NCBI GenBank assembly: GCA_902599955.1 | Contig: CACKHK010000006.1 | Location: forward strand, 1-55,554 | Origin: an uncultured Pelagibacteraceae bacterium | Lineage (GTDB): Bacteria; Pseudomonadota; Alphaproteobacteria; Pelagibacterales; Pelagibacteraceae | Direction of reading: 5' to 3' | Length of the DNA: 55,554 nucleotides | Shown: piece after piece, positions 7,865 through 46,421 of the stretch | Layout: each line of letters begins with the position of its first letter | Numbering within the stretch: position 1 is the stretch's first letter | Made by a program: the position numbers and the translations under genes | The notes under the pieces: generated by a model | Seen by the model: only the letters and a program-made list of their open reading frames with translations | The model's database searches: none | Told to the model about the DNA's origin: nothing

Positions 7865-8525
7865 TTATTACTCCATCTTTAATAATGATTTTTCTTTTTG
7901 TTAAATTAGCCAAATTATTATCGTGGGTAACCATTATTAAACTTGCATTTTCATCTTCAATATAATTAAAAAGTAAACTAGAAATTTTATCTGTATTTTC
8001 ACTATCTAAGTTACCAGTAGGCTCATCCGCTAAAATTAGCTCTGGTTTCATTGCAACAGACCTTGCAATGGCAACCCTCTGTTGTTCGCCTCCTGAAAGT
8101 TGGCTTGGAAAATTATTAAATCTATTACTTAAACCAAACCTATCTAAAATTTCTTTTGCTTTCACTGTTGGATTATCAAATTTATTTATTTCTAAGGATA
8201 GGCTAACATTTTCAAGTGCAGTATAATTTGGTATTAAATAAAAGGATTGAAATACTATTCCTATATTTTTTCTTCTAATTTTAGAAATTTCATCCTCATT
8301 CATTTTAGACAACTCTGAATCTCTAAAAAAAATATTTCCTGATGATACTTTTTCTAGACCTCCGATCAACATGATTAAACTTGTTTTGCCTGAACCACTT
8401 TCACCAACTACTGAAATAGTTTCTTTATTATCTGCTTCGAAACTAATATTTTTTAAAATATTTATAGACTTGCTGTCTATTGTATAATTTAAATTAACAT
8501 TAGATAATTTTAAAAGTTTACTCAT
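7851..8525 (-). CDS. ybbA: ABC transporter ATPase, YbbA/LolD type
   Basis: 224 residues from the ATG at 8525 ([12 protein letters not shown]). Walker A is GESGSGKTS, the Q-loop is FQSFYLIP, the signature is [14 protein letters not shown], Walker B is [13 protein letters not shown] and the H-loop is MVTHD. This is a MacB/LolD-class ATPase for the YbbP-like permease encoded just after it. An in-frame upstream ATG at 8582 would lie within tesA on the other strand and adds 19 residues unlike any family N-terminus, so it is rejected. The chosen ATG overlaps the ATG of tesA within CATG. Confidence 0.9.
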
Positions 8526-39376: not shown

Positions 39377-39958
39377 ATGAATGATTTTTTAGAGTCGATA
39401 ATTAAAAGAGATCCTGCTGCAAGATCAAAGTTGAGTTTAATACTAACTTATCCTGGTGTTAAAGCTGTGTTTTTTCATAGAATTGCTAATTTTTTTTCAA
39501 TTGCAAAATTTCATCTTGTTGCAAGAATAATTTCTCAGTTCTCAAGATTTTTAACAGGCATAGAAATCCATCCAAATGCTAAAATTGGTAAAAATCTTTT
39601 TTTAGATCATGGCATGGGAGTAGTTATTGGGGAAACATCTGATATTGGAGATAATGTTACCATCTATCACATGGCAACATTAGGCGGAATTGCTCCAAGT
39701 ATAAATTCAGATGATCAAAGAAATGTTAAGAGACACCCAACTCTAAAAGAAAATGTTGTTGTAGGATCTGGTGCACAAATACTTGGGCCAGTTGTAGTTG
39801 GTAAAAATGCAAAAATTGGAGCTAATGCTGTTGTTACAAAAGATGTTCCAGAAAATGCAGTAATGGTTGGAATTCCTGCAAAAAATGTTGGAACTGCATC
39901 AGAAGAATTTAAACCCTATGGTGTTGCACCAGGAGGTGATACAAAACTTGATGTATGA
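39377..39958 (+). CDS. cysE: Serine O-acetyltransferase
   Basis: 193 residues, a short form without the long N-terminal helical domain of enteric CysE. The left-handed beta-helix is clear: [36 protein letters not shown] and the [21 protein letters not shown] repeats (each shown in part). The catalytic histidine lies in [11 protein letters not shown]. It makes O-acetylserine for cysteine synthesis. Its TGA overlaps the ATG of cysK (ATGA), so the two are coupled. Confidence 0.92.
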
Positions 39959-40956
39959 AAACTTTACAAAATAATTTTGTCGAAGCAATAGGAAACACTC
40001 CTTTATTTAAATTAAAAGCCGCATCAGAAATTACTGGTTGTAATATTTATGGAAAAGCAGAGTACCTTAATCCAGGTGGCTCTGTAAAAGATAGAGCAGC
40101 TCTAGCATTAATAAGGGATGCTGAAGAAAAAAAATTAATTTCAAAAGGTGGAACAATTGTTGAAGGAACTGCTGGTAATACTGGAATTGGATTATGTCTT
40201 TTAGGAAATTCTATTGGTTATAAAACTATAATCGTAATGAATGATAATCAAACACAAGAAAAAAAAGATTTATTAAGAAATATTGGGGCTGATTTAAGGT
40301 TAGTTCCACCAAAACCTTATAAAGATGAAAATAACTTTGTTAAATATGCAGGAAGATTGGCTGACAAATTGAAAAGTAGTAACAATCACGGTGTAGTTTG
40401 GGCTAATCAATTTGACAATACAGCCAATTCTAAAGGTCATTATGAAACAACAGGGCCAGAAATATGGGAACAGACTGATGGCAAAATAGATGGTTTTGTA
40501 TGTTCATCTGGTACTGGTGGTACAATTGCAGGTGTAAGTAGTTTTTTAAAAGAAAAGAATAAAGATATTAAAATATATTTATCAGATCCAACAGGTTCCT
40601 CTCTATATAGTTACGTTGAAAATGGTGAATTAAAGAGTGAAGGTGGTTCAATAACTGAAGGTATTGGATCTAGTAGAGTTACTGCTAATTTTGCAAAAGC
40701 ACGTATTGATGGAGCATTTTCAATAAGTGATCATGAGTCTTTACCTGTTTTATTCGATTTAATTGAAAAAGAAGGTTTAAGTTTAGGTACAAGTTGTGGA
40801 GTGAACATTGCTGGAGCAATAAGATTGGGTAAACTTTTAGGACCAGGTAAAACGATTGTCACAATTCTTTGTGATAAATCTGATAAATACAACTCAAAGA
40901 TGTTCAATAAATCTTTTTTAAAAGAAAAAGGTCTTCCCTATCCTCACTGGATATAA
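39955..40956 (+). CDS. cysK: Cysteine synthase A family (O-acetylserine sulfhydrylase)
   Basis: 333 residues. The PLP lysine is Lys45 in [13 protein letters not shown]; the phosphate loop is [11 protein letters not shown] and the substrate loop [10 protein letters not shown]. It joins O-acetylserine and sulfide to make cysteine. Its place behind SQR, persulfide dioxygenase and CysE means sulfide in this cell can either be oxidised or assimilated. SAR11 is known to lack assimilatory sulfate reduction, so sulfide here would come from reduced organic sulfur. Confidence 0.92.
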
Positions 40957-41040: not shown

Positions 41041-41424
41041 ATGGACGTAAAAGAGCAAACTAAAAAAGCATATGAACTATTTGGTTCAGGAGATATGGAA
41101 ACATTTTTTAATGATATGATCGATGATGAAATCGTTTGGACTTTTCCAGGTAAAGAAGGTGTACATCCACTTTCTGGAGTTCACAAAGGGAAACAAGCTA
41201 TGATGGCTGCAATGTCTAAAATCCCAGCTACTTGGCCAAATTTCCATTTAAAAGTTTTAGATATGATAAGTGAAGGAAATAAAGTTTTTGCAAGAGTTCA
41301 TGCAACTGCGGATAACATGGATACTATGTTTGGTCACTATTTTGAAGTAAGTGATGAGGGAAAAACTAAAGTTATGATGACTTTTGATGATACGCTTAGC
41401 ATGTTCAATGCAATGAAGAAGTAA
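41041..41424 (+). CDS. NTF2/SnoaL-like protein
   Basis: 127 residues. Pattern of a SnoaL-type cone fold: an N-terminal helix with the AYELFGSGDMETFFNDM signature, then DDEIVWTFPGKEGVHPLSGVHKG and beta-strands carrying MISEGNKVFARVHATA (key parts shown). Members are isomerases, dehydratases or ligand-binding proteins; the pocket residues do not identify a reaction. It is the first gene of a run of small genes, with AAAGGAGAAACT before ATG. Confidence 0.8.
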   Translation: MDVKEQTKKAYELFGSGDMETFFNDMIDDEIVWTFPGKEGVHPLSGVHKGKQAMMAAMSKIPATWPNFHLKVLDMISEGNKVFARVHATADNMDTMFGHYFEVSDEGKTKVMMTFDDTLSMFNAMKK

Positions 41425-41432
41425 GGAACAAT

Positions 41433-41762
41433 ATGTCAATTTTAGAAAAACTTAATAAAGCAATCATGGAAAAAGATGGTGCAGCAGCAGCTGAGATTAT
41501 TCATGATGATTATAAGAGATATTCTCATCTTCAGGGAGCCTATACTGAAAGTGGAAAAACAGGTATGATTGAAGCAATTAACAAAGGTTTCATGAAAGTT
41601 GATAAATATAGAATTTTATATGAAAACGATGAAATAGGTTTTGATCATTCTATTGTTACTTATGCCGAAGATGGAAATAAAGAGGCTTTAATGTGTTATT
41701 GGAAATTTAAAGATGGTAAAATCATTGAACTCGAAACAGGCGCAACCAAAATACCAAAATAA
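41433..41762 (+). CDS. NTF2/SnoaL-like protein, paralogue of 44487-44807
   Basis: 109 residues starting MSILEKLNKAIMEKD. It shares the start (MSILEK), the IHDDY/LHDDF block, YENDE(I/V)G, and the LETGAT..PK ending with the protein encoded at 44487-44807, so the two arose by duplication within the operon. The fold is a short NTF2-like cone. No enzyme signature is recognised. It begins 8 bases after the preceding stop, with AAGGA upstream. Confidence 0.75.
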   Translation: MSILEKLNKAIMEKDGAAAAEIIHDDYKRYSHLQGAYTESGKTGMIEAINKGFMKVDKYRILYENDEIGFDHSIVTYAEDGNKEALMCYWKFKDGKIIELETGATKIPK

Positions 41763-41788
41763 TTATAAACTAACAGAAGGAGTTTAAT

Positions 41789-42139
41789 ATGAGTAGTATT
41801 GAAGTTAAAACCTTTGATAAAGCAGATGAGGTAGTTGATAAGTTTAATAATGCTAAAATAGAAGCAGTTAAAGTAGGCGGTCAAAGAGTAGTTAGATTAC
41901 ATTTAAAACCAGGATGGAAATGGTCTACAGATGTTAAGCCACATATTGGAACTGACAGTTGTCAGGCAAACCATATTGGAATTATCACAAAGGGATCTGT
42001 TTGTGCAAAACACGATGATGGAACAGAGGTTACATATAAAGCAGGAGATTCTTACTCCGTAACACCAGGTCATGACGCTTGGGTAGTTGGCAATGAACCT
42101 GTTGAAGCATATGAGTTTGCCGGGGTTTGGGGAGAATAA
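41789..42139 (+). CDS. Cupin-fold protein
   Basis: 116 residues. The cupin barrel is suggested by LHLKPGWKWSTDVKPHIGTD, the CQANHIGIITKGSVCAKHDDG strand-turn region (key NHIGIITKGS) and AGDSYSVTPGHDAWVVGNEP. Histidines in NH and PGHDAWV positions could bind a metal. It might bind a small ligand or act as an isomerase or oxygenase. AGAAGGAG precedes the start, and the next gene begins 1 base after its stop. Confidence 0.75.
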   Translation: MSSIEVKTFDKADEVVDKFNNAKIEAVKVGGQRVVRLHLKPGWKWSTDVKPHIGTDSCQANHIGIITKGSVCAKHDDGTEVTYKAGDSYSVTPGHDAWVVGNEPVEAYEFAGVWGE

Positions 42140-42140
42140 A

Positions 42141-42410
42141 ATGGTAAAAATGGTTGGTAACTTTGAAGTAAAAGACTGGGCTCACTGGAAAAAAATGTTT
42201 GATGAGCACTCTGGTCCTAGGGAAGCAGCAGGTATTAAAACTATTTACGTAGGTAATGAAATAGAAAATCCAAATAAAGTACATATTGTGATGGAAACAC
42301 CAGCAGCAGACACTATGCAAAAATTTATGCAGAATCCAGAGAATGCTAAAGTAATTGCGGAATCTGGTCATAAACAAGAGACAACAGTAATGAGCGTTTG
42401 CTCAGATTAA
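42141..42410 (+). CDS. Small alpha/beta-barrel-like protein (ABM/DUF3764-like)
   Basis: 89 residues from ATG 42141, directly after the cupin stop. The pattern MVKMVGNFEVKDWAHWKKMF, then GIKTIYVGNEIENPNKVHIVME and a helix AAADTM-like region reads beta-alpha-beta-beta-alpha-beta, the dimeric ferredoxin-like fold of antibiotic-biosynthesis monooxygenase relatives. No catalytic residue set is recognisable. GGGAGAAT lies just upstream within the cupin 3' end. Confidence 0.65.
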   Translation: MVKMVGNFEVKDWAHWKKMFDEHSGPREAAGIKTIYVGNEIENPNKVHIVMETPAADTMQKFMQNPENAKVIAESGHKQETTVMSVCSD

Positions 42411-42435
42411 ATTAGCAAAAAAAAGGAGATATATT

Positions 42436-42729
42436 ATGTTTGTAAAAATAGAACAAAAACTCTCAAAAGGTTTTAATTCTTGGAAGGAAATGATGCTTGC
42501 AAATAGTGAGAAACTTAAAAAGTATGGAATGACTATAGCTTTTGCAGGTGCAGATAAAGAAGATGATAATGCTATGACTGTAGTTATTCATTTTGAATCA
42601 CCTGAGGGCTTAAAAGGTTTTGGTGGAGATGCAGAACTAACTCAAGCAAGAATAGATTCTGGAGTAATAATGGACCAATCTAAAATGACCATGATGACTG
42701 ATGAATCTGTGATGAACCACAAAGGATAA
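42436..42729 (+). CDS. Small alpha/beta-barrel-like protein
   Basis: 97 residues. FVKIEQKLSKGFNSWKEMM, then GMTIAFAGADKEDDNAMTVV and a helix FESPEGLKGFGGDAELTQ suggest the same ferredoxin-like topology as the preceding protein, with which it shares the W-K-x-M helix start and a VV(I)HFE(S)-like central strand. It is methionine-rich toward the end (MDQSKMTMMTDESVM), which might mean metal binding or nothing. AAAAGGAG precedes the ATG. Function unknown. Confidence 0.65.
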   Translation: MFVKIEQKLSKGFNSWKEMMLANSEKLKKYGMTIAFAGADKEDDNAMTVVIHFESPEGLKGFGGDAELTQARIDSGVIMDQSKMTMMTDESVMNHKG

Positions 42730-42734
42730 TTCTA

Positions 42735-43220
42735 ATGATGAAAAAAATATATGTAATTATGTTGTTTTTAATATTTACAACATCAAGTTTTGCAGACGGT
42801 CATAAAGGAAAAATTGATCTTAAAGGTTTTATTGTTGGAGATAACAAATTTCTTACTGATAACGAGGGTAACTTTTTAACTTTTACTTACGATGGAGTTG
42901 GAGGATTAATGGCAGTCGAAGGTACAACATTCATGGATAATGCTTCACAATATTGTCTTGGCGCAGGCACAATCCCAGGAAAGGGATTTGAAATGGGACA
43001 CTGTAAAATAAATCAAATGGATGGGGATACTATTTTTACATACTACGAAATTCCACTTGGAGACTCAATGAATGGTACATTTAAATGTTTAGGGGGAACA
43101 GGAAAATATAAAGGAATAGAATGTAGTGGCTGAACAGGGTACACACCAATTAACTCAGCCCAAGAAAATAAATTTGCCTCATCAATTTATTTTAAAGGTG
43201 GATATTCTTTAATGAAATAA
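42735..43220 (+). pseudogene. Secreted small protein with an in-frame TGA (TGG to TGA or readthrough)
   Basis: The frame starts at 42735 with a signal peptide (FTTSSFADGHKG) and runs 132 codons to TGA at 43131-43133. The same frame then continues for 28 more codons (TGYTPINSAQENKFASSIYF and onward) to TAA at 43218-43220. Without the extension an unusual 140-base gap would separate it from the next gene in an operon of tiny gaps. The residue at the TGA would plausibly be Trp (SG-W-TG). Four cysteines suggest disulfides in the periplasm. Family not recognised. Confidence 0.6.
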
Positions 43221-43273
43221 TTGAATAATCATAAGATTGATTTAAAATACGAAATAAAAAAAAGGAGAAAAAA

Positions 43274-43561
43274 ATGAAATATTATATGGTAACTCACACT
43301 TTTAAATCTAAAGAAATGAAAGACAAATTTAACGAGGTTTTAGGCGGCATGTCCAGAGAAGATATGATTAAATCTTCCACTAGCGATAAAGCTAAATGCC
43401 AAATGACATATTACACTCCAGGTGATACTATGACAATGTTTTGTCATTGGATGGCAGAAAGTACTGATGCTATTAATGAACAGCTTACTCAGATGAATGA
43501 TTTTTTTGAACCTCACCAATTTACTGAGGTTAAAGAAGAAGTTTTCGATTTTAACAAATAG
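43274..43561 (+). CDS. Small alpha/beta-barrel-like protein, DUF3303-like
   Basis: 95 residues. MKYYMVTHTFKSKEMKDKF starts a beta-alpha unit; KCQMTYYTPGDTMTMFCHWM forms the central hairpin; a long acidic helix TDAINEQLTQMNDFFEPHQF follows. The YMV(T)HTF start and the MFCHW(M)AES strand resemble DUF3303-type proteins. AAAAAGGAG precedes the ATG. Function unknown. Confidence 0.7.
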   Translation: MKYYMVTHTFKSKEMKDKFNEVLGGMSREDMIKSSTSDKAKCQMTYYTPGDTMTMFCHWMAESTDAINEQLTQMNDFFEPHQFTEVKEEVFDFNK

Positions 43562-43570
43562 GAGGAAAAA

Positions 43571-43861
43571 ATGGAAAAAGAAGTTTTAGTGATCGTAGAT
43601 TTGAAAGAAGGAAAACTTGAAAAATTTATGGGATGGATGCAATCAGATGAGGGTATGAGTGTAAGAAAATCAGCAGCTCATCCAGAAAAAACTATAGGAG
43701 CAGTAAAGCCAGATAAAAGTGGCGTAATGTTTAAGGTATTTGTTCATAATATGGAAAAAATGAAAGAACTAATATCTGGTACACATCCAGTTGGAAAGGA
43801 AATTTACGATGAATGTGTTATCAAAATGACTGCTTGGGATTTAACAAAGGTTGAAATGTAA
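43571..43861 (+). CDS. Small alpha/beta-barrel-like protein
   Basis: 96 residues. EKEVLVIVDLKEGKLEKFMG opens with a strand and helix, KTIGAVKPDKSGVMFKVFVH is the central hairpin and NMEKMKELISGTHPVGKEIY the second helix, again a ferredoxin-like layout. TAGGAGGAAAAA before the ATG is nearly the full anti-Shine-Dalgarno complement. It ends one base before the next start region. Function unknown. Confidence 0.65.
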   Translation: MEKEVLVIVDLKEGKLEKFMGWMQSDEGMSVRKSAAHPEKTIGAVKPDKSGVMFKVFVHNMEKMKELISGTHPVGKEIYDECVIKMTAWDLTKVEM

Positions 43862-43862
43862 T

Positions 43863-44186
43863 ATGGCGAAATTTTATTTGGTTGGCAAAATAAGTGCAGA
43901 ATTAATGAAAAGAATGCAAAATGATCCAACTGCAGATAGATATGCATCGACTAAGAAAGTTACTGAGGCGGCTGGTTTAAAATTGATCAGCTATGAATGG
44001 GTAAGAGGTAGATTTGATGTTATCTCATGTGTCGAGGGAGATTATGAACAAGCACTTTCCTTGAAGATTGCATTTAAAAATTCAGGTCTTATGGATGATT
44101 TGATGGTACATGAAGTTATTGACTACAATAAAGCTTTTCAAAATGCTGCAGATGCCACAAAGTCTGTTATTAAACCAGGAGAATAA
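43863..44186 (+). CDS. GYD-like small alpha/beta protein
   Basis: 107 residues from ATG 43863 (a frame from 43851 would begin inside the previous gene). MAKFYLVGKISAELMKRM, then AAGLKLISYEWVRGRFDVIS and ALSLKIAFKNSGLMDDLMVH resemble GYD-domain proteins, with a (G)RFDVI(S)CVEGDY strand in place of the usual G-x-YD motif. It likely forms a dimer or larger ring. The ribosome site is poor, so translation is probably coupled to the preceding gene, whose stop overlaps this region. Confidence 0.7.
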   Translation: MAKFYLVGKISAELMKRMQNDPTADRYASTKKVTEAAGLKLISYEWVRGRFDVISCVEGDYEQALSLKIAFKNSGLMDDLMVHEVIDYNKAFQNAADATKSVIKPGE

Positions 44187-44188
44187 TT

Positions 44189-44476
44189 ATGAGTGGTTAT
44201 GCGATCTTTAACCTTAATGTTAACAATCCAGAAAATTATAAGGAATACATAGACAAAGTTAAACCCACTGCAGAAAAATTTGGTGGAGAGTATCTTGTGA
44301 GAGGTGGTACTAGCGAGACTATTGAAGGGTCATGGCAACATCCAAGGACAGTTGTGATAAAATTTCCAAGTTACGAGAAAGCAAAAGAATGGTATAATTC
44401 TGAGGAATATAAACCAATAAAACAAATTCGGTTAGATAACGCAGATTCTAATGGAATGATAATTGAAGGAGTTTAA
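44189..44476 (+). CDS. DUF1330-family protein
   Basis: 95 residues. GYAIFNLNVNNPENYKEYID, GGEYLVRGGTSETIEGSWQH, RTVVIKFPSYEKAKEWYNSE and EYKPIKQIRLDNADSNGMII form the complete DUF1330 pattern (each shown in part), including the conserved R-G-G, P-S and WY-S-EY-K-P elements. Biochemical role in the family is not established. AGGAGAATAATT before the ATG lies in the end of the preceding gene. This is the most confidently recognised of the six barrel-like proteins. Confidence 0.85.
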   Translation: MSGYAIFNLNVNNPENYKEYIDKVKPTAEKFGGEYLVRGGTSETIEGSWQHPRTVVIKFPSYEKAKEWYNSEEYKPIKQIRLDNADSNGMIIEGV

Positions 44477-44486
44477 AGGAGATAAA

Positions 44487-44807
44487 ATGTCAATATTAGA
44501 AAAATACAGTGCTGCATTAAAAAATAAAGATGAAGCAGCTATGAATGAACTTTTGCATGATGATTTCAAATTCACAATGCATAAATCAGGAAATACTTTA
44601 GGTAAAGCTGAAGTGATCAAATGGGCGATGAGTGGTGATATTAATCAAAGAGATACTAGAGTTGTATATGAAAATGACGAAGTGGGTGTACACCACGCAT
44701 TTGTAACATTTGATGATGGAAATACTGAAGCAGTAATGGCAGTCTACAAATATGATAATGGAAAAATCATGAGTTTAGAGACTGGCGCAACACCAATGCC
44801 TAAATAA
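44487..44807 (+). CDS. NTF2/SnoaL-like protein, paralogue of 41433-41762
   Basis: 106 residues from ATG 44487 (AAAGGAGATAAA upstream); a frame from 44463 begins inside DUF1330. MSILEKYSAALKNKDEAAMN, ELLHDDFKF, VVYENDEVGVHHAFVTFDDG and the LETGATPMPK ending pair it with the second gene of the operon. The TAA shares one base with the ATG of the cupredoxin gene. Function unknown. Confidence 0.75.
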   Translation: MSILEKYSAALKNKDEAAMNELLHDDFKFTMHKSGNTLGKAEVIKWAMSGDINQRDTRVVYENDEVGVHHAFVTFDDGNTEAVMAVYKYDNGKIMSLETGATPMPK

Positions 44808-45304
44808 TGAAAAAACTTATACTTTTATTTATTTTTATCGCCTTTAATTCTAATGCAGCTTCAATGAAGATGATTGGATCTAAGGGTAATCCAAATGATG
44901 TTACTAGAGTAATAGAAGTAAAGATGTATGACAATTATTATGAGCCAAGTTCAATTCAAGTTAAAAAAGGTGAAACAGTAAAAATAATTGTTAAAAATTT
45001 AGGTGAACTGGTACATGAATATAATATTGGCACTAAAAAGATGCATATTGATCACCAACCCGAAATGGCAAGATTAATTGAACACGATATTCTTTTAGGC
45101 GACCGTATTGATCATAAAAAAATGAAAGAAATGTCTAAAAAAGATCACTCATTAGGCCATAAACACGCAAATAGTGTAATGCTAGAGCCAAATAAAACAG
45201 GAGAAATTATTTGGAAGTTTTCAAAAGATATTTCTTTAGAAATGGCGTGTAATATTCCGGGTCATTATGAAACTGGAATGGTTGGGCCAATTATTATTGA
45301 ATAA
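44807..45304 (+). CDS. Periplasmic cupredoxin-like copper-binding protein
   Basis: 165 residues with a signal peptide (cleavage near FNSNAASMK). The cupredoxin fold shows VKMYDNYYEPSSIQVKKGET, a His in GELVHEYNIG, and Cys, His and Met ligands in EMACNIPGHYETGMVGPI. A His/Met/Lys-rich insertion in the middle (KKMHIDHQPEMARLIEHD, then DHKKMKEMSKKDHSLGHKH) could bind extra copper. It resembles plastocyanin/azurin-like proteins of copper handling. It ends the small-gene operon and is its second exported product. Confidence 0.85.
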   Translation: MKKLILLFIFIAFNSNAASMKMIGSKGNPNDVTRVIEVKMYDNYYEPSSIQVKKGETVKIIVKNLGELVHEYNIGTKKMHIDHQPEMARLIEHDILLGDRIDHKKMKEMSKKDHSLGHKHANSVMLEPNKTGEIIWKFSKDISLEMACNIPGHYETGMVGPIIIE

Positions 45305-45346: not shown

Positions 45347-45685
45347 TTGATGAGTAATATAACAGCTTATATAATCTTAATTATTGCAGTTGCTCTTGGT
45401 ACAGCATCAAATGGTTTTGCCAAAGCTGCAAATGGTTTTACAATATTTTTACCAAGTGTCTTTACAGCAATAACAATAGTTGCATGTATGTATACACTAT
45501 CCTTAGTTATGAAAACTATTCCTGTTAGCGTAACATATGCTTCATTCGCAGGCTTATGTATAATAGCTACTTCTATTGTGGGAATTTATAAATTTAATCA
45601 AATTCCTGACTTTTTTACAATTATAGGTCTAATACTAATTATATCTGGAGTTTTAATTGTTAATTTAGTAGGAAAATCAAATTAA
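45347..45685 (+). CDS. SMR/EmrE-like four-helix membrane protein lacking the catalytic glutamate (second copy)
   Basis: 112 residues, four helices, same architecture as the protein at 22390-22725. Helix 1 reads ALGTASNGFAKAANGFT where EmrE has AEVIGTTLMKFSEGFT, so Glu14 is again glycine, and G-x-A-x-N-x-FAK is shared by both copies. IPVSVTYASFAG and ISGVLIVNLVGKS match helix 3 and the C-terminus. An unusual SMR branch with another mechanism or substrate is likely. Confidence 0.8.
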   Translation: MMSNITAYIILIIAVALGTASNGFAKAANGFTIFLPSVFTAITIVACMYTLSLVMKTIPVSVTYASFAGLCIIATSIVGIYKFNQIPDFFTIIGLILIISGVLIVNLVGKSN

Positions 45686-46034: not shown

Positions 46035-46421
46035 TTATTTTAAAAAGTTATCTACCTCTACTTGATAACCTTCAACTAAACGATTTGTTTCATTTGCCAT
46101 TCCAACTATTGCGATCATTTCGTTTATCATTCCATCTGTTGCACCTTTTTTTCTTGCTGCTAAGGAATGAGATTTAATACAATATTCACAATTGTTAGTA
46201 ATTGAAACTGCAACATAAATAAGCTCCTTTACAGCAGGATCTAATTCACCTTTTCCCATTACTTGTTGTAATGATCTCCAAGTTCTTTCTAATGTTTCTG
46301 GACTATTAGCCATAGTTTTCCAAAAATTCGGAATTTCAGTTATTTGTCGAGCTTCTTTTATTTCATCAAAAATTTCTTTTACTTTGCCAGTTGCATCTTT
46401 TTCTTCAATTGGTTTGAACAT
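46035..46421 (-). CDS. AhpD/carboxymuconolactone decarboxylase-like protein
   Basis: 128 residues, all-helical. The AhpD-type redox motif is NCEYCIKSHSLAARK (C-x-x-C followed by the conserved SH). PIEEKDATGKVKEIFDEIK at the start and LVEGYQVEVDNFL at the end are typical of peroxidase-related CMD proteins. It likely reduces peroxides or is a lactonase relative; the CxxC favours a peroxidase role. GGAGGAAAT precedes the ATG. Confidence 0.85.
   Translation of the reverse strand: MFKPIEEKDATGKVKEIFDEIKEARQITEIPNFWKTMANSPETLERTWRSLQQVMGKGELDPAVKELIYVAVSITNNCEYCIKSHSLAARKKGATDGMINEMIAIVGMANETNRLVEGYQVEVDNFLK

Follow-up and report, generated by a model that had tools for sequence, protein, structure and literature searches.

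A flexible operon-like array of small-protein genes at a fixed site in Pelagibacter genomes

The array and its genes

The window, a stretch of 55,554 nucleotides from an uncultured Pelagibacteraceae bacterium (contig CACKHK010000006.1), contains twelve open reading frames (ORFs) of 89–165 aa on the forward strand between positions 41041 and 45304 (g1–g12, Table 1). All twelve read open from ATG to a single stop. A preliminary description of this DNA reported twelve consecutive same-strand small genes with short gaps, and this is borne out, with gaps of −1 to 26 bp except for one of 140 bp. Small ORFs (≤165 aa) are rare outside the array, where they make up 7 of the 48 other window ORFs of at least 80 aa. 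The chance that a given run of twelve would consist entirely of small ORFs is P ~4e-8, or 2e-6 over all window positions.

The array is operon-like and composed of small binding folds. Its genes share a strand, are separated by short gaps and have conserved neighbours, while the membrane protein gene c24 lies on the opposite strand in some genomes. Promoter and terminator scans gave no more matches than in shuffled sequences. The GC content of the array (0.32–0.34) is slightly above that of most of the window. The strongest positive GC skew of the window also coincides with the array, although this says little.

Table 1. Array genes and their borders in the window, with the number of closed loci (of 76) that carry each family.
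Feature	Length (aa)	Position	Strand	Gap to next array gene (bp)	Loci (of 76)	Basis or remark
cysE and cysK, left border		39377..40956	+			limits variable site
g1, SnoaL/NTF2-like	127	41041..41424	+	8	28 (one entered by hand)	Pfam SnoaL_2 2.1e-11, above cut-off
g2, NTF2-like, g11 paralogue	109	41433..41762	+	26	16	SnoaL/NTF2 Pfam match below cut-off
g3, small cupin	116	41789..42139	+	1	39 (sample partly picked by g3)	Pfam cupin match below cut-off
g4, DUF3764	89	42141..42410	+	25		Pfam 2.3e-10, above cut-off
g5, DUF3764-like	97	42436..42729	+	5		Pfam 5.7e-5, just below cut-off
g6, putative exported beta-barrel, allene-oxide-cyclase-like	132	42735..43133	+	140		AlphaFold model of intact relative L057
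g7, SCO4226-like	95	43274..43561	+	9	25	Pfam 5.3e-4, below cut-off
g8, predicted dimeric alpha+beta barrel-type, no Pfam name	96	43571..43861	+	1	61	AlphaFold model
g9, GYD-domain-like	107	43863..44186	+	2	36	Pfam GYD 6e-6, below cut-off
g10, DUF1330	95	44189..44476	+	10	46	Pfam 7.6e-34
g11, NTF2-like	106	44487..44807	+	−1	73 (sample partly picked by g11)	SnoaL/NTF2 Pfam, above cut-off
g12, putative exported, cupredoxin-like	165	44807..45304	+		18	Pfam Cupredoxin_1 3.6e-8, above cut-off
SMR-family transporter gene, right border		45350..45685	+			Pfam 7.2e-13

Ribosome sites are stronger in the array than elsewhere in the window, as previously noted, with a median duplex energy of −8.3 versus −2.9 for the 49 other window genes, each given the best of three starts (Mann-Whitney P = 9e-4). 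Exceptions within the array are g12, which has none (+1.5), and the weaker g9 (−3.8), g2 (−5.1) and g6 (−5.6), while several window genes outside the array match its ribosome-site strength. Across the Pelagibacter loci described below, medians range from −8.3 to −10.2 for g1, g3, g4, g5, g8 and g11, compared to −2.3 for cysK and −0.4 for the SMR gene. Strong sites are not general across these loci: g12 and the array families c29 and c74 have none, and g9 and g10 are middling. The flanking gene CMD also has a strong site.

Folds of the array proteins

The composition first proposed for the array, namely three NTF2-like, one cupin, six dimeric-barrel-type and two exported proteins, holds, with one of the six barrels modelled. 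The NTF2-like g2 and g11 were also correctly recognised as internal paralogues and share 47% identity. By sequence, the nearest solved relative of g1 is 1tuh (E 1.1e-4), which we take to be the integron cassette protein Bal32a. Solved relatives were also found for g10 (2fiu and 3lo3) and g12 (4hcf, E 5e-4), while the same type of search returned nothing for g3 (profile), g4, g11 or the family c40, and only implausible matches, if any, for g7 and g8. Matches of another family, c48, to designed 'Pizza' proteins were short and judged to be chance. No NCBIfam equivalog was found above cut-off for ten array proteins (all but g11 and g12).

For g8, which has no Pfam match above cut-off, the AlphaFold model (pLDDT 94.3) matched 7w6d in Foldseek (1.7e-4). 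In VIA, it reached Z 9.0 to both 9lmn (3.4 Å, 88 aligned) and 3gz7 (2.6 Å, 87 aligned), scores nearly equalled by other ferredoxin-like proteins. The modelled g8 monomer thus has the ferredoxin-like alpha+beta fold of the dimeric alpha+beta barrel superfamily. The remaining five barrel-type members (g4, g5, g7, g9 and g10) presumably share this fold, judging from knowledge of their families.

Both g6 and g12 are predicted to be exported, each with a putative signal peptide recognised by inspection. In the window, g6 ends at an in-frame TGA (43131–43133), and the same frame continues to 43220. Because this stop stands where six relatives read Ser (five) or Thr (one), g6 is 29 residues short in the window genome. 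When the frame is counted to 43220, the 140-bp gap after g6 shrinks to 53 bp. The stop went unremarked in the preliminary description. An intact relative (L057) was modelled with eight strands (pLDDT 84.5) and matched 7x7z in Foldseek (2.0e-5). Its best VIA match was 2q03 (Z 14.5; 2.4 Å, 123 aligned), and further matches were 7x81 PloI4 (Z 13.5; 3.5 Å, 128 aligned) and the pyocyanin demethylase 5k21 (Z 12.2; 2.7 Å, 117 aligned). Based on this model, the predicted fold of the g6 family is an allene-oxide-cyclase/dirigent-like eight-stranded barrel.

A fixed site with fluid content

Absence from related genomes had been named as the result that would speak against the array. Instead, it was found across Pelagibacter at one site, between cysK and the SMR transporter gene, in 76 closed loci. 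These remained from 124 sources after removal of 46 without cysK and two (L064 and L065) whose contigs end before the SMR gene. Two loci (L148 and L160) have no SMR match, and DUF952 served as the end of their interval. In L059, the cysK ORF runs in frame into g1, so g1 and g2 of this locus were added manually. Loci were picked via g3, g11 or cysK rather than at random, so the frequencies of g3 and g11 are inflated. One family, c81, had no model in the locus annotation.

The array spans roughly 1.4–5 kb across SAR11 genomes and holds up to a dozen genes. These are drawn from a pool of 22 families, mostly small and mostly single-domain proteins of the NTF2, dimeric alpha+beta barrel, cupin, exported barrel and small membrane types, with the DSBA-like family c29 present in 30 of the 76 arrays. 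Some inserts look on reading like unrelated enzymes, including alpha-hydroxyacid and beta-hydroxyacid dehydrogenase-like ORFs and the enolase-superfamily-like c101.

Conservation of gene order across SAR11 had been suggested as a check. Relative order is largely kept: with minus-strand genes excluded, it agrees in 2075 of 2172 gene-pair co-occurrences (95.5%), versus a mean of 60% and a maximum of 63% in 200 shuffles. However, content is not fixed: since the 76 loci hold 57 distinct ordered contents, no set of genes is conserved as a whole. A single fixed complex of these twelve parts, as one earlier idea implied, is therefore unsupported, with only g11, the most constant member, near-constant (73/76). 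Content differs at every level of divergence among locus pairs. Eight contents occur among the 16 loci with cysK at least 98% identical (aa) to the window, and only 18 of 183 locus pairs with cysK ≥98% have identical family sets. Turnover acts on individual genes, through gain, loss or replacement with a divergent allele, leaving each genome with its own subset in a largely common order.

No convincing boundary repeats or tRNA genes marking a mobile element were found. Carriage by viruses was also considered and rejected, as scans of viral contigs with g3 as a single sequence, a g3 profile and a g8 profile confirmed no relative. Phage records gave two distant DUF1330 matches only.

The same families in other lineages

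Array families also occur side by side elsewhere. For example, g1 adjoins g3 in 10 of 11 loci of a second SAR11 family, the remaining locus (L051) having the cupin without other array families. Another alphaproteobacterial family has the arrangements g8-g3-c40-g11, g8-g3-g11 and g8-g11. A class-level search gave 15 places outside the window's genome, from which the best 11 were fetched and the four weakest left. Outside the order, 7 of 11 cupin loci, from four families, carry a further member, always within ~2.5 kb, and the other four have the cupin without other array families. A phylum-wide search with g3 added five more genomes, none of them from another class, in which the cupin stands alone within 1.5 kb on each side.

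Among hand-picked neighbours at the 11 loci outside the order, HxlR and GST genes were each seen in at least two and a GFA gene in at least one. In a wider scan, g3 was found with a GFA-family gene in 34 of 80 loci (28 adjacent and six one gene away; one member checked by Pfam), and at this GFA site it stands apart from the array families. No GSH- or aldehyde-related gene and no HxlR-type regulator is present among g1–g12. These three gene types turned up in only a few lineages, and the neighbour scan was hand-picked rather than systematic, which counts against the small-molecule reading given below.

Mosaic alleles and selection

Neighbouring genes of the array can differ widely in divergence. 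In one locus (L033), nucleotide identity to the window is 100% for g7, 77% for g9, 67% for g10 and 96% for g11. Across close pairs of loci (cysK ≥95% aa; 21 copies outside the interval removed and the first SMR gene used), identity fell below 80% aa in 57/128 pairs for g10, 56/108 for g1, 42/81 for g2, 66/241 for g8, 60/227 for g9, 81/138 for c13 and 106/191 for c24. Other members are not mosaic (g4 0/60, g7 0/21, g12 0/108, g11 4/308 and g3 15/160), and the flanking genes gave 0/313 for cysE and 12/298 for the SMR gene. Several neighbouring array genes thus recombine independently, whereas cysE does not and the SMR gene does so rarely. The downstream HisN is mosaic as well (73/191 pairs), so recombination extends beyond the array genes.

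These observations could indicate a site permissive to recombination, at which small and cheap genes turn over near-neutrally and share a tolerance of insertions rather than a function. Content that varies at all divergences, the recombining HisN and the inserts that read as unrelated enzymes are all consistent with this. However, median dN/dS is 0.05–0.49 for the array families tested, which are under purifying selection, and the lowest value belongs to the strongly conserved g3 (0.05). Several strong ribosome sites, a mostly common strand and a common relative order also argue against near-neutral turnover, as does the co-occurrence of the same families at unrelated sites in other lineages. 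In addition, a streamlined genome such as that of SAR11 tends not to retain neutral DNA. On balance, we consider a near-neutral spot unlikely.

Comparison with known systems

A SAR11 small-protein array at the cysK–SMR site was not found described in the literature, in agreement with the initial impression that no known system has such a composition. The closest likeness is to SAR11 flexible islands, which in the available parts of the descriptions have a fixed site, variable content in close relatives and exchange by homologous recombination (PMC2217521; PMC7318151). The array likewise keeps its site while content differs in close relatives (57 contents in 76 loci; eight among the 16 closest). 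In the same parts of these sources, HVR1–4 and flexible islands hold surface-polysaccharide, transport/secretion or unknown genes, HVR3 is filed as 'unknowns', and the cysK–SMR site is not named (PMC2217521; PMC7318151); cysK is also absent from the main text of PMC2217521 as available. In contrast to the islands described there, the array is operon-like and ordered, with small-protein genes mostly on one strand and several strong ribosome sites.

Integron cassette arrays are a second comparison, to which the presumed cassette protein nearest to g1 adds a likeness. Like the array, they comprise sets of small proteins with small-molecule pockets, according to the available part of PMC3548836. 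However, the window gaps of −1 to 53 bp (with g6 counted to 43220) are too short for attC, and order is conserved. No attC-type sites were found, gaps being at most 26 bp bar one and repeats being short or within paralogous genes. An integrase was absent from the recognised families and from the unknown ORFs read at 10 loci.

Another comparison is with operons for aldehyde and electrophile detoxification under HxlR/MarR-type regulators. GFA, GST, VOC, DSBA-like thioredoxin-fold and SMR-type partners near array families in relatives resemble such operons, whereas the window site has no recognised regulator and the array no enzyme of proven detoxifying activity.

Polyketide pathways are known to use SnoaL, dimeric-barrel and allene-oxide-cyclase-like barrel folds in their cyclases and oxygenases. 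The array could accordingly be a natural-product tailoring cluster that makes or modifies a secreted compound through such folds. The SnoaL fold would apply to g1, g2 and g11, the OAC/ABM fold to g8 and the AOC barrel of Diels-Alderases to g6. Structures similar to g8 and g6 include cyclases of polyketides and other natural products (7w6d, 9lmn and 7x81), and g1 matches the putative polyketide cyclase 6hnl. However, structural matches of g6 and g8 are mostly at 6–19% identity, and a common fold does not prove a common reaction. No biosynthetic scaffold enzyme (PKS, NRPS or terpene synthase) was seen among recognised families or the unknown ORFs read at 10 loci, and content changes from genome to genome, unlike that of a pathway. 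A tailoring role is therefore distinctly unlikely.

The resemblance of g7 to the nickel-responsive SCO4226 family (5e-4), together with the cupin and the cupredoxin-like, putatively exported g12, might suggest an operon for handling nickel or copper. This is very unlikely, as g7 and g12 occur in only 25 and 18 of the 76 loci, g7 is below the Pfam cut-off and most members have no metal-linked family. Least probable of all is a polyimmunity or defence island whose small proteins each counter a different toxin or phage attack: such loci typically show the mosaic, strain-specific small-protein content seen here, but ten array proteins (all but g5 and g11) had no match to known defence proteins in PADLOC at 1e-3, PHROG gave one weak match among ten proteins (g7, 6.9e-4), the viral-contig scans confirmed no g3 or g8 relative, and none of the array families is known as an immunity family.

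A possible role in small-molecule chemistry

Both functions suggested in the preliminary description, small-molecule processing and a redundant set of binders, survive the comparison. Our preferred reading, held tentatively and with slightly less than even confidence, is that the flexible, recombining operon at this fixed Pelagibacter site serves to bind or transform small molecules of a reactive or foreign kind, such as aldehydes, quinones, other electrophiles or lipophilic toxins. Its genes would be exchanged by ordinary homologous recombination, given that no recombinase was recognised among the inspected interval ORFs and that the gaps could not accommodate attC-type sites. The proteins would be made in quantity, with each module adding one more ligand. 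Exported members would have a periplasmic role, while the SMR pump encoded alongside might export the remainder. Shifting chemical exposure would then favour shifting subsets of genes.

Weighing against this reading, the folds are permissive and leave the chemistry unfixed, some cupins stand without other array families, and several members lack strong ribosome sites or mosaic alleles. HxlR, GST and GFA neighbours, the DSBA-like c29, VOC and SMR were counted as hints of chemistry for this reading. A more specific and more doubtful version is that the ligands are electrophiles. More speculative still, and somewhat unlikely as a whole, is an integrase-free cassette array, a strongly translated and recombining repertoire of small-molecule binders selected for diversity, through which individual SAR11 lineages tune their tolerance to changing seawater chemistry, including algal, bacterial or photochemical toxins. 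If true, the array would resemble a variable defence locus, but directed at chemicals and housed in a streamlined genome.

SAR11 ranks with the most abundant groups of bacteria in the sea, and its genome is highly streamlined, so a changing small-protein locus of ~1.4–5 kb probably pays. The locus also groups several orphan families (DUF1330, GYD, DUF3764, SCO4226-like, and small proteins of the SnoaL and cupin types) as a guild that has defined partners and can be tested. Natural differences in gene presence between close relatives could link array families to chemical exposure.

Content and order of the array

The array is a genuine operon that occurs widely and varies to an unusual degree, and it represents a variant of the flexible islands of SAR11; the structural claims made on it are nearly certain. 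In the window (source genome of 1.04 Mb, 71% complete, with uncultured Pelagibacteraceae of SAR11 as its closest named relatives), it is bordered by cysE-cysK on the left and the SMR transporter gene on the right. An ORF check bore out the twelve small same-strand genes (g1-g12) as described, and so many consecutive genes of ≤165 aa are far from what chance would give there. The strong ribosome sites of the preliminary description were confirmed for the operon, with some exceptions; over many genomes, such sites suggest that the proteins may be abundant, as for binders. The exported-barrel gene g6 is cut by an in-frame TGA, leaving its product 29 residues short. This position holds Ser in five and Thr in one of the six relatives checked, and a stop in none; the stop may reflect genuine decay of the gene or an artefact of single-cell amplification or of assembly.

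Across 76 closed loci, intervals between cysK and SMR (or a substitute), no two intervals are identical; each holds 2 to 12 recognised genes, and 57 distinct ordered contents occur. All 10 cysK intervals found in 12 genomes picked among those without a g3 match contained 3 to 8 families of the same pool.

Gene families at the cysK-SMR site (loci of 76; sample biased towards g3 and g11; exported and membrane labels of pool families assigned by eye)
Family	Type	Loci
g11	NTF2-like	73
g8	barrel-type	61
g10	DUF1330	46
c13	small exported	45
c24	membrane	42
g3	cupin	39
g9	GYD	36
c29	DSBA-like	30
g1	NTF2-like	28
g6	exported barrel	26
g7	SCO4226-like	25
c33	DUF2798	24
c40		22
g5	DUF3764-type	19
g4	DUF3764-type	18
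g12	cupredoxin	18
g2	NTF2-like	16
c74	TPR	16
c89		9
c48		4
c114	exported cupin	4
c101		2

Whether gene order is kept in SAR11, a point raised in the preliminary description, can be answered positively: 2075 of 2172 pair co-occurrences (95.5%) follow the majority order, against a mean of 60% in shuffled loci, and exceptions mostly involve g3, g6, g7, g8 or c13. Four loci (L147, L180, L181, L182) carry an ORF of 386-389 codons close to cysK, resembling by eye FMN-dependent alpha-hydroxyacid dehydrogenases in L147 and L180.

Variation and recombination

The 16 loci nearest the window show 8 contents. Nucleotide identity to the window can change sharply between neighbours, for example in L033 (g7 100%, g8 98%, g9 77%, g10 67%, g11 96%) or L058 (g1 69% next to cysK 94%). 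Among pairs with cysK ≥95% identical in amino acids, g1, g2, g8, g9, g10, c13 and c24 fall below 80% in 26-59%, cysE in 0/313 and SMR in 12/298. Past SMR, HisN (73/191) and TauD (15/114) also diverge, while five array members stay stable: g4 (0/60), g7 (0/21), g12 (0/108), g11 (4/308) and g3 (15/160). Recombination thus extends beyond the array and does not affect all of its genes. The array families tested have median dN/dS values between 0.05 and 0.49. Given the very short gaps and that no recombinase was recognised at the site, exchange by homologous recombination at shared genes would be the simplest mechanism. Promiscuous recombination has been reported for SAR11 (PMC12374537). Integron cassette collections come closest to the array in content, yet the array is not one; the full-text literature covered on either, with most subscription papers outside its scope, yielded no description of it.

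The same families elsewhere

Within the order, a second family has g1 next to g3 in 10 of 11 loci (exception L051); g9, an ABM-like gene, c48 and g5 are further members in several of them (g9-ABM-g1-g3-c48-g5 in L093; g3 last in L048). Three 1.4 Mb genomes of another alphaproteobacterial family hold g8-g3-c40-g11, g8-g3-g11 and g8-g11; among 385 genomes sampled from the class, g8 matches reaching E 1e-8 were limited to this trio, the window's genome and one congener. L091, from an alphaproteobacterium named as uncultured, also has g8-g3-g11. Outside the order, the 11 cupin loci come from 10 genomes; seven of these loci, from four families, include at least one further member, always within ~2.5 kb. 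L202, L203, L205 and L208 have none, and a phylum-wide search gave five genomes with the cupin alone within 1.5 kb.

A scan of 80 g3 loci placed 39 at the cysK/SMR site, 34 with a GFA-family gene nearby (adjoining in 28, one gene away in 6) and 7 elsewhere. Where present, the intervening gene appears by eye to be VOC-type, and the g3-GFA pair is divergent from umuD/umuC-like genes, also by eye. Hand-picked neighbours of the cupin outside the order include HxlR regulators (L206, L207), GST (L202, L204) and GFA (L206). The HxlR-type regulators are a possible handle on the inducing signal.

Folds and possible function

Pfam relates g1, g2 and g11 to SnoaL/NTF2 proteins, g3 to cupins, g12 to cupredoxins, g4/g5 to DUF3764, g7 to SCO4226-like proteins, g9 to GYD and g10 to DUF1330, with the matches of g2, g3, g5, g7 and g9 under curated cut-offs. 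Pfam gave no credible family for g8; its AlphaFold model (pLDDT 94.3) resembles dimeric alpha+beta barrels, the nearest structures including olivetolic acid cyclase and ABM-type proteins at low identity. An intact g6 relative (pLDDT 84.5) is modelled as a barrel of eight strands that resembles PloI4 and dirigent proteins, with pyocyanin demethylase scoring slightly lower. A common fold is no proof of function for these or other members.

Handling of small molecules is the probable role, as suggested by the recurrent partners, the pocket-type folds, the neighbouring SMR gene and the exported members. Aldehydes, quinones or other electrophiles are tentative targets, suggested by the GFA, GST, HxlR and VOC neighbours; the role of GFA in formaldehyde is disputed. 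In Ca. P. ubique, sulfur stress is reported not to raise expression of cysK and cysE (PMC5069961), so the array is not an obvious sulfur-starvation island.

Coordinates of individual features
Feature	Locus	Position (strand)	Observation
g6 stop	window	43131-43133	in-frame TGA
Carboxymuconolactone-decarboxylase-family gene	window	46035-46421 (-)	flanking; ribosome site equally strong, median -10.2 over 27 loci
c24 (~138 aa)	L085	5889-6302 (-)	example of one genome group; adjoins cysK
c24	L037	5569-5982 (+)	example of another group; within array
g3-GFA	34 loci between L089 and L130	cupin mostly near 8001	SAR11 site other than cysK-SMR
HxlR-type regulator	L206	4148-4621 (-)	beside same small-protein families; larger-genome alphaproteobacterium
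HxlR-type regulator	L207	7322-7768 (+)	as for L206
c48-family gene	L052	9456-9881	exported version at g7's place in window; signal-peptide-like N-terminus (by eye), lacking in c48 relatives from another SAR11 family
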